The notes under the pieces: model-generated | What the model was told of the DNA's origin: nothing | The model's input: only the letters and a program-made list of their open reading frames with translations | The model's database searches: none | Position numbers and translations under genes: made by a program | Source of the DNA: Candidatus Methylomirabilota bacterium | Lineage (GTDB): Bacteria > Methylomirabilota > Methylomirabilia > Rokubacteriales > CSP1-6 | DNA: 64,000 nt | NCBI GenBank assembly: GCA_035709005.1 | Contig: DASTFB010000083.1 | Coordinates: 1-64,000, forward strand | Direction: 5' to 3' | Shown here: piece after piece, positions 61,106-63,596 of the stretch | Layout: each line of letters begins with the position of its first letter | How positions within the stretch are numbered: the stretch's first letter is position 1

Positions 61106-61591
61106 GTGACGGTGCGCCTCTGGGTTCTCGTTGCCCTCCCGCTGGCGCTGGCCGCATGCGCCACCGGCAAGCCCCTCGAGCAGCGGACGAGCCAGGGACC
61201 CACGGCCGAGCACTTCTGGTTGCTCCGGATGATCGAGGCCAACGGTCGCGAGCCGGACTTCGACGAACGCCGGCACTGGCAGAATCAGATCGACGAGGAC
61301 ATCGCGCAGTACCTGCGCACGCACCCCGAGACCGCCAACAGCCTGGAGGTCTCGACGTTCCGCTTCTACCGGCGGGCGACGGTCGGCATGACCAAGGAGC
61401 AGATCGTGATTCTGCTGGGCCGGCCGGAGACCACGACCACCGATCCCGCCGAGATGGAGAAGCTGGCCCGTCAATACTGGCCGAGCGTCAAGGCCCGCGC
61501 CCAGGAGGCCTGGACCTACCCGCTGGGCTGGCGATTCTACTTTACCGACGACCGGGTGGTCGACATCACGCAGTACCTGCCCCGTGAGTAG
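61106..61591 (+). CDS. putative lipoprotein
   Basis: A 161-residue exported lipoprotein: signal segment LWVLVALPLALAACATG with lipobox LAAC and lipid-anchored Cys near residue 18. The later sequence VGMTKEQIVILLGRPETT resembles the SmpA/OmlA fold, in which a short G-x-T-x-x-x-V motif precedes LGxP. GTG 61106 lies 6 nt after TATGCT (61094-61099), so a leaderless transcript is possible. Its function is not known beyond an envelope location. Confidence 0.78.
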   Translation: MTVRLWVLVALPLALAACATGKPLEQRTSQGPTAEHFWLLRMIEANGREPDFDERRHWQNQIDEDIAQYLRTHPETANSLEVSTFRFYRRATVGMTKEQIVILLGRPETTTTDPAEMEKLARQYWPSVKARAQEAWTYPLGWRFYFTDDRVVDITQYLPRE

Positions 61592-61605
61592 CGAGGAGCT
61601 TGCCC

Positions 61606-61866
61606 ATGCCGGAGCTGGAAGAGAAAGTCATCGCGAGCTGGAGGTACAGCAAGGGGGCGCTCGACGCCAAGACCGCGGCGCTCTGTTATCTGGCGGCCAA
61701 CCTGGCCGTGGGGAACACCCACTGAGCGAAACGCGACCTGGCGGGCGCCAGGGCAGCCGGAGCCAGCGAGGCCGAACTGCGAGAGGCCATCAGCTTCGCC
61801 ATCCGGGCCAACGCGGCCCGCGCCCACGCCGACATCTTGAAGGTGTGGGCCGATGGCGGACATTAG
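61606..61866 (+). CDS. AhpD/CMD-like protein with in-frame TGA: probable selenoprotein
   Basis: Read through one TGA (61723-61725), the gene encodes 86 residues of the AhpD/CMD family. Residue 40 is the TGA position in VGNTH-[U]-AKRDLAGARAAGAS. Gapless comparison with the family pattern LDRKTREL...GCEYCxxxHxxxxxxAGAS puts U on the second, nucleophilic Cys of CxxC; the first Cys is Asn37 and the usual His is Asp44. A Shine-Dalgarno AGGAGC is 7 nt before ATG 61606. Neither half makes sense alone, and downstream sequence (EAELREAISFAIRANAARAHADILKVW) is family-like. A SECIS-like hairpin follows. The expected role is a selenol-based peroxidase or oxidoreductase. The stop overlaps the next gene. 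Confidence 0.82.
61733..61754 (+). promoter_or_regulatory. candidate bacterial SECIS element in the AhpD/CMD-like gene
   Basis: Starting 12 nt after the TGA, CCUGGC (61737-61742) pairs perfectly with GCCAGG (61747-61752) around the loop GGGC; two further G-C pairs (61733-61734 with 61753-61754) extend the stem beyond a 2-nt bulge. The loop begins 17 nt after the TGA and starts with GG, the same geometry as in the OsmC gene. Confidence 0.72.
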
Positions 61867-62164
61867 CCTGACCGCGGCTTTCTCCACGGTCCCCGTCGGC
61901 GAGCAAGAGCACATCAAGCGCGTGCTGGTCGAGACCGTCGGGCAGCTGGCGCGCGAGGACGGGACGTTCGCGCGCGCGCGCATCGTGTTCACCGAATCCG
62001 ACGAGCGCTGCGGGCTCTCCGCCGAGCTCGACGGCATCAAACGACAGGGGGTGCCGTTGCCGCTGGACCTCGAGGAGCTGGAAGAGGCGAAGACCTCAGC
62101 CGGGGCCCGGGCCCAGCTCAAGGAGTCGTTGCGCCTGTACTTCCGGAAGGTGCTCGGCAAGTGA
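61853..62164 (+). CDS. small protein of unknown function downstream of the AhpD-like selenoprotein
   Basis: A 103-residue soluble protein with no recognised family. Its sequence is mixed alpha-beta (ADISLTAAFSTVPVGEQEH, IVFTESDERCGLSAELDG, LKESLRLYFRKVLGK) with one Cys at about residue 53. The ATG overlaps the end of the selenoprotein gene by 14 nt, which indicates coupled translation. Because of this coupling, it may be a partner of the selenoprotein, but nothing else supports that. Its stop overlaps the methyltransferase GTG. Confidence 0.6.
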   Translation: MADISLTAAFSTVPVGEQEHIKRVLVETVGQLAREDGTFARARIVFTESDERCGLSAELDGIKRQGVPLPLDLEELEEAKTSAGARAQLKESLRLYFRKVLGK

Positions 62165-62868
62165 CGGACGACGCAGGGCGGCTCTTGTTCCTTTGGCGGG
62201 AGTGCCTGTTCCGAGTGCCCGATCGGGTGCAGGCGCCCAAAGCGGGCTCGCTGTTCTTCTGCCGTCACCTCGCCGTCCAGCGGGGTGAGCGCATGCTGGA
62301 GATCGGCGCCGGACTCGGGCTGGCCGCGGTGCTGGCGGCCCGCGCCGGCGCCCACGTGGTCGCCACCGACATCCTCCCCGAGGCCGTCGACGCCATCCGG
62401 GCCAATGCGGCGATCAACGGGGTGAGCGTCGACGCGCGCCAGGGCGACGGTTACGGGCCGGTCGTCGGCGAGCGCTTCGACCTGATCTGCACCAATGCGC
62501 CCCAGATGCCGACACCGCCTGGCCGTGAACGGCGCGACGCCGCGGCGGCTGCCGACAACGGCGGGTTCGACGGCTGGGACATCCTCGACCGCGTCATCGA
62601 GGGCGCCGGCGCCCATCTGCGGCCCGGTGGCCGGCTCGTCTTCTCCATCTTCGGCTTCCTGGGACGCAAGAGCGCGTTCGCCCGGCTCGAGCGCGCGGGA
62701 TTCGTGCCGATGGTGGTGGCGGTGGAGACGCAGGCGTTCCCGCGCCTGGGGTATGAGCGCCTCGATCACATCCGCAGCGTCGATGGCGAAGGGACACTGC
62801 CAGCCGGTGTGCCCGTGACCGTTGAGCGTCTGATCCTCCAGGGCACCCTGCCATGCTCCGCCGGCTGA
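62161..62868 (+). CDS. SAM-dependent methyltransferase, PrmC/HemK-like
   Basis: A 235-residue methyltransferase. Motif I is MLEIGAGLGLAAVLAARAGA, followed by VVATDILPEAVDAIRANA. Motif IV reads LICTNAPQMPTPP where PrmC-type enzymes have NPPY, so N-A-P-Q is a substitution that may change the acceptor. GTG 62161 overlaps the upstream stop; the end overlaps the ChbG gene by 16 nt. The methyl acceptor is unknown. Confidence 0.8.
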   Translation: MTDDAGRLLFLWRECLFRVPDRVQAPKAGSLFFCRHLAVQRGERMLEIGAGLGLAAVLAARAGAHVVATDILPEAVDAIRANAAINGVSVDARQGDGYGPVVGERFDLICTNAPQMPTPPGRERRDAAAAADNGGFDGWDILDRVIEGAGAHLRPGGRLVFSIFGFLGRKSAFARLERAGFVPMVVAVETQAFPRLGYERLDHIRSVDGEGTLPAGVPVTVERLILQGTLPCSAG

Positions 62869-63596
62869 TCGTCAACGCCGACGACTTCGGGATGACACCG
62901 GGGGTGAGCGCCGGGATCCTCCTCGCCGCTCGCCACGGCATCGTGACCAGCACCACAATCCTCATGACGGCGGACATCGACCGCGGCCAGCTGTCCGCCG
63001 CGCTCGATTCCGGCCTGGGGCTGGGCATCCACCTCAACCTCACGCTCGGCAAGCCGCTCACCCGCGCCCGCTCCCTGGTCGACGGCGACGGCCGCTTCGT
63101 GCGTGATCCGCGCCGGGCGGCGGCCCGGGCGGACGTCAAGGACGTCGAGAGCGAGATCGAGGCGCAGGTCGAGCGCTTCATTGCTCTTGCCCGCCGCCCG
63201 CCCACGCACCTGGACACCCACCATCACGTCGGGCTCTTCCCGCCCGTCGATGACGTCGTGCTGCGAGTGGCCCGCCGGCTGGGCGTCGCCGTGCGCAGCC
63301 AGACGGAGCTGGTCCGGGCGCGCGCCCGCGCGGCTCGGCTCAAGACCCCCGATCACTTCTTCGGCGAATCGGGGCCTGCGGCCTACTGGTCGCCGGCGCG
63401 CCTGCGCCAGGTCTTGAAGGAGGTGCCCGGCGGTGTCTCCGAGTTCATGACGCATCCCGGCCACTGCGACGAGGGCCTTGCCGGCAGCCGGTACGGGCGC
63501 CAGCGCGAGACGGAGCTGGTCGGCCTGGGGAGCGCGGCCGGCCGGGCGGCCGTGGCGAGCCTCGGTATCCGCCTCTGCCACTTCGGCGACCTCTGA
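62853..63596 (+). CDS. ChbG/HpnK (YdjC) family deacetylase
   Basis: A 247-residue carbohydrate deacetylase of the YdjC fold: RLIVNADDFGMTPGVSAGIL carries the metal Asp pair, HLDTHHHVGLFPPV the metal His pair, and SEFMTHPGHCDEGL a later His. Members deacetylate chito-oligosaccharides or hopanoid precursors (HpnK). Here no hopanoid genes are visible, so the substrate is unknown. It precedes the ROK kinase gene by 7 nt, consistent with amino-sugar use. Confidence 0.86.
   Translation: MLRRLIVNADDFGMTPGVSAGILLAARHGIVTSTTILMTADIDRGQLSAALDSGLGLGIHLNLTLGKPLTRARSLVDGDGRFVRDPRRAAARADVKDVESEIEAQVERFIALARRPPTHLDTHHHVGLFPPVDDVVLRVARRLGVAVRSQTELVRARARAARLKTPDHFFGESGPAAYWSPARLRQVLKEVPGGVSEFMTHPGHCDEGLAGSRYGRQRETELVGLGSAAGRAAVASLGIRLCHFGDL

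Follow-up and report, generated by a model that had tools for sequence, protein, structure and literature searches.

The window, the whole 64,000-nucleotide stretch of DNA that was analysed, almost certainly contains a gene for a selenoprotein of the AhpD/carboxymuconolactone decarboxylase (CMD) fold, in which selenocysteine (Sec) would be inserted at an in-frame TGA. The frame reads MPELEEKVIASWRYSKGALDAKTAALCYLAANLAVGNTH-TGA-AKRDLAGARAAGASEAELREAISFAIRANAARAHADILKVWADGGH-TAG, comprising 39 residues, the TGA, 46 residues and the terminal TAG, and is otherwise open. This bears out the original prediction of an 87-codon frame interrupted by TGA alone, since positions 61606-61866 hold 86 codons plus TAG with a sole in-frame TGA. 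The coordinates of the gene, its parts and its neighbours are compiled in Table 1.

Table 1 Predicted features of the selenoprotein locus in the window.
Feature	Coordinates	Strand	Remarks and basis
Lipoprotein gene	61106..61591	+	Lipobox LAAC, weak BamE-like stretch; upstream, adjoins the selenoprotein gene in the window
Ribosome-binding site GAGGAG	61593..61598	+	7 nt 5' of ATG; sequence
AhpD/CMD-like selenoprotein gene	61606..61866	+	86 residues with Sec40, stop TAG; sequence, PF02627, orthologues
Active-site motif Asn37-Thr38-His39-Sec40 (AhpD Cys130-Ser-His132-Cys133)	61714..61725	+	Invariant; alignment
Sec-encoding TGA	61723..61725	+	TGA in all orthologues
bSECIS hairpin CCUGGC-GGGC-GCCAGG	61737..61752	+	Loop 61743-61746; conservation, covariation, PMC13188914 criteria
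Gene for 103-aa protein, no known family	61853..62164	+	Conserved neighbour; ATG inside the selenoprotein gene, 14-base overlap
Methyltransferase gene, HemK2/MTQ2-like	62161..62868	+	Conserved neighbour; TIGR00537, 93.8 bits
YdjC-like carbohydrate deacetylase gene	62853..63596	+	Conserved neighbour

A search of the class genomes recovered a TGA-containing orthologue in 40 of the 57 genomes of the host family, with the TGA internal in all 40; among the 95 class genomes, no orthologue of the gene with the Asn-Thr-His-Sec (NTHU) motif was found outside that family. All 31 named loci of the orthologue belong to metagenome-assembled genomes assigned to Candidatus Rokubacteria, Rokuibacteriota or Methylomirabilota, and a plasmid search gave no match. 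Thirty-seven distinct orthologous sequences have the frame with its TGA, the NTH-TGA motif and the hairpin in common. In the orthologues examined, the TGA is replaced neither by a sense codon, for Cys or otherwise, nor by a different stop; the non-Cys sense codons and random stops that the original prediction named as counter-evidence were thus absent from the close homologues. The terminal stop varies among TAG, TAA and TGA, whereas the internal TGA is fixed. Pairwise codon differences among the orthologues amount to 4384 synonymous and 1651 non-synonymous upstream of the TGA, and to 4519 synonymous and 1335 non-synonymous downstream; purifying selection is thus about equal on both sides. As had been proposed, the halves before and after the TGA belong together: both are conserved as coding sequence, and the Pfam CMD match (PF02627, residues 14-76, 35.7 bits against a gathering cut-off of 23 with Cys put for Sec) spans the TGA. 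A pseudogene or an assembly error, that is, two fragments parted by a chance stop, is exceedingly improbable, for although one TGA does break the frame, the same TGA stands in every orthologue, from about 20 genera and dozens of separate assemblies, with similar purifying selection on both halves. Chance, sequencing error and decay are ruled out by the conservation of the TGA together with the synonymous bias on its two sides.

The alignment with CMD proteins suggested earlier shows Cys or Sec at the TGA position in CMD homologues, the correspondence to Cys coming from the wider CMD family only. A Cys form of the NTHU clade was found neither in 84,980 species, searched by peptide patterns that are insensitive to distant relatives, nor in the 95 class genomes. 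With no Cys orthologue found, the usual Sec/Cys pair is missing within the NTHU clade.

The host genome of the window (4.59 Mb, 95% complete) is a member of 'Candidatus Rokubacteria' and contains the complete Sec machinery (selA, selB, selC and selD) by which a bacterial selenoprotein is recognized. Absence of this machinery would have spoken against the original prediction, and all four genes were found. The tRNA-Sec at C64:6481 scores 68.9 bits, above the family cut-off, and is called SeC with anticodon tca by ARAGORN; SelA (596 bits) lies 1.3 kb past it. SelB (361 bits) has an intact open frame, and SelD scores 336 bits. The host SelD (L149, G000:C87:189561-190505) itself contains a UGA, in the context ...YASCAG-U-ASK..., followed by a hairpin.

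A perfect 6-bp hairpin follows the TGA exactly where it had been predicted (12 nt after the TGA, with the GGGC loop 17 nt after it). The stem occupies +12 to +17 (61737-61742) and +22 to +27 (61747-61752) after the TGA and the loop +18 to +21, which leaves 17 nt between UGA and loop. The published bSECIS model comprises a loop of 3-9 nt on a stem of 4-16 bp, G in the first two loop positions within N1-G-[G/U]-N2 with N1-N2 pairing, 16-37 nt from UGA to loop, and a minimum free energy (MFE) of at most -7.5 kcal/mol (PMC13188914). Folding of the region after the TGA, as proposed earlier, yielded a hairpin that agrees with the model on all four counts: a 4-nt loop on a 6-bp stem, the loop consensus RGGY, the 17-nt spacing, and an MFE of -11.7 kcal/mol over nt 10-30, falling to -14.3 when the stretch is lengthened slightly.

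Across the family the hairpin reads CCUGGC-RGGY-GCCAGG and spans codons +4 to +9 after the TGA. Codons +4, +5, +8 and +9 are fixed as GAC, CTG, GCC and AGG in the 37 distinct sequences, the last three each in 37/37; elsewhere in the gene most codons for invariant residues vary (mean entropy 0.80 bits). Among the Arg codons of the neighbouring genes AGG has a share of 1.1%, in contrast to 37/37 at the hairpin Arg; GCA, which fills codon +6 in 29 of the 37, has a share among Ala codons of 1% locally and 3% in the remainder of these genes. The hairpin codons are frozen beyond the needs of the protein. The outer loop positions N1-N2 are A-U in 28 sequences, G-C in 7, A-C in 1 and G-G in 1. When the changes are counted on a tree that omits the hairpin, there are about 6 at each of these positions and 7 for the pair, which indicates that the two positions mostly switch together; they are the N1 and N2 that pair in the published bSECIS model. 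Synonymous recoding of the gene gave a stem of at least 6 bp at the hairpin place in 0.6% of 100,000 trials and comparable stability over nt 10-30 in 0.1% of 2,000. Relative to dinucleotide shuffles, a 43-nt window showed no excess stability (z = 0), and the SECIS assignment therefore rests on conservation and position. An Rfam scan of the window returned 0 matches.

The selenoprotein product is predicted from genes, and the TGA could be a real stop that releases a 39-residue peptide, or UGA could be read as another amino acid through general recoding. Both are very unlikely. The half after the TGA is conserved as protein, several relatives end this gene with UGA, so that the codon is not generally reassigned, and the Sec machinery is present along with a SECIS-like hairpin.

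The AhpD/CMD fold is peroxide-detoxifying, and the bearers of the NTHU protein are soil and groundwater bacteria. AlphaFold2 predicts the chain with a mean pLDDT of 93.9 and helices at residues 21-34, 38-50 and 55-83. The top Foldseek matches are CMD/AhpD proteins (RclX 7y4r, 3bey, TTHA0727 2cwq and 2ouw) with probability 1.00; their E-values are weak, the best being 0.043, which is to be expected of a chain of 86 residues. The residues of the AhpD relay, Glu118, Cys130, His132, Cys133 and His137 (PMC3141380), were used for alignment and place Sec40 at Cys133, His39 at His132, Asn37 at Cys130, Asp44 at His137 and the variable position 25 at Glu118. This agrees with the original prediction that the TGA falls on the second Cys of CxxC, with Asn in place of the first Cys and Asp in place of the usual His. 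Among the orthologues neither the G-N-T-H-U motif nor Asp44 varies. The NTHU protein therefore lacks the CxxC active site of AhpD, and of the proton relay only His132 (His39) and Cys133 (Sec40) are retained. Sec40 sits close to the N-terminus of the second active-site helix, at the place of AhpD Cys133, and by this alignment would be the nucleophile. The comparison supports a Sec site that is fixed without a neighbouring Cys.

Cys27 is invariant in the NTHU proteins and is Val in the CxxU relatives. As a candidate substitute for the resolving Cys it was set aside: situated two residues from the position of the AhpD relay Glu, it is expected on the opposite helix face, which makes a resolving role doubtful.

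In the proposed mechanism, SelB, docked on the hairpin that spans nt 12-27 past the UGA, would deliver Sec-tRNA, and the ribosome would insert Sec40. The Sec40 selenolate, helped by His39, might then attack a peroxide or similar electrophile in the style of a one-Cys peroxiredoxin or GPX. The resulting selenenic acid could be resolved by an external thiol, either thioredoxin or a low-molecular-mass thiol, or alternatively by another Cys of an oligomer, for example the invariant Cys27. We give this one-selenol peroxidase or reductase mechanism roughly even chances. Another reading retains the selenoprotein and differs in mechanism only: the NTHU site, with His74 and Asp44, may bind a metal or metalloid or be structural, or the protein may be a regulatory CMD. 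The broken AhpD proton relay is consistent with such a role, as are the reported lack of peroxidase activity in the homologue TTHA0727, which has Ser at the first Cys (PMC3141380), and the occurrence of AhpD domains in selenoprotein models for arsenite methyltransferases and methyltransferases (NF041537, MduS matches). We nevertheless regard a non-peroxidase function as rather unlikely, as Sec at such sites is mostly redox-catalytic in families of known function (PMC1088965, PMC13188914) and the AhpD site keeps its His (His39). Tentatively, and somewhat short of an even chance, the NTHU proteins may represent a lineage-specific class of AhpD-fold enzymes with one selenol, no CxxC or CxxU dithiol and a chemistry undescribed for AhpD proteins, which the fixed Asn and Asp in place of the resolving Cys and relay His and the loss of the relay Glu would imply. 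That chemistry might be a one-selenol peroxidase, a selenol-based thiol transferase or metalloid handling. The naturally one-selenol active site would also disentangle what the nucleophilic and the resolving residue each contribute to AhpD chemistry.

The gene had been placed in an operon with a lipoprotein, an unknown small protein and a methyltransferase. The latter two are indeed conserved downstream, as is the YdjC gene. In the window and in many relatives the 103-aa gene has its ATG within the selenoprotein gene. The lipoprotein gene, on the other hand, is directly upstream in some genomes only; in many relatives other genes intervene. The 103-aa protein has 0 Pfam or NCBIfam matches and is conserved across the order at 61-82% identity, its gene lying 5' of the methyltransferase gene in nearly all loci examined. 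It is also present in relatives in which no copy of the selenoprotein was recovered (G002, G008 and G036-G038), and the two are consequently not obligate partners. The gene context names no substrate.

Other AhpD-like Sec proteins were seen in this lineage and its relatives. A second AhpD-like selenoprotein, of the CxxU type with motif GCTSU or GCYTU, occurs in Rokubacteria and related families (L044-L060 and L154-L183, e.g. L045:1843-2127) and has its own strongly conserved hairpin after the UGA, GCUUCGC-GGCY-GCGAAGC; no copy was found in the genome from which the window comes. A third group with motif NCFDU (L185-L190) is accompanied by a SECIS-like hairpin. One AhpD-like frame (L184, G063:C241) carries the motif GCYPU, and another (L192, G075:C330) has two in-frame TGAs in AG-U-LP-U (UxxU), followed by a hairpin of the GCTSU type. 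In all, at least five AhpD-like Sec motifs were seen in Rokubacteria and their relatives (NTHU, GCTSU, NCFDU, GCYPU and UxxU), a natural series for studying the diversification of Sec active sites. The host phylum is reported to have a very large selenoproteome (PMC13188914).

The present analysis adds a clearly bounded selenoprotein subfamily. No existing family model scores above its cut-off on these proteins, and standard annotation would therefore end them at the TGA. The N-x-x-U form was rightly described as unusual, as the published AhpD-like selenoprotein families are given as CxxU (PMC13188914 Table 1; PMC2398784; PMC1088965); the main text of deep-Sep makes no mention of AhpD or Rokubacteria. 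On sequence grounds, NTHU is a real AhpD-like selenoprotein variant, absent from the published tables consulted and restricted to Rokubacteria as far as tested.

The best NCBIfam match is the GSU3128 family NF041047 ('distant AhpD homolog', CxxU), with 48.4 bits over residues 4-80. Its members have the same length as the NTHU protein and Sec or Cys at the same place. However, the curated cut-off of 110 bits is not reached (the protein scores 48.4, the genome scan 41.7), and the family motif is CxxU/CxxC (PMC13188914), whereas all NTHU orthologues have NxxU, with Asn for the first Cys. The NTHU proteins also form one clade (tree support 96/88), from which the CxxU proteins found in related genomes stand apart. 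The CxxU relatives in the host family have another stem sequence in their hairpin, yet their 4-nt loop with GG is likewise at +18 to +21. The E. coli fdhF SECIS (K-12 record) has AGGU at +18 to +21 after the UGA, the loop found there in 28 of the 37 Rokubacterial sequences; its stem sequence is unlike the Rokubacterial one, a perfect 6 bp closed by a 4-nt loop. With Mycobacterium tuberculosis AhpD and PA0269 the NTHU protein has in common the two-helix active-site hairpin, including the equivalents of Cys133 and His132, but it differs from them in lacking the resolving Cys (Asn37), His137 (Asp44) and Glu118 (variable). TTHA0727 (PDB 2cwq) is its best PDB sequence match (E 1e-5). There too the first Cys is replaced (Ser70) and the second kept, although the latter is Cys rather than Sec, the chain is longer, and Ser rather than Asn takes the first position. 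TTHA0727 is thus a precedent within the fold for loss of the first Cys and retention of the second, and the NTHU protein extends a known kind of selenoprotein rather than founding a new one.
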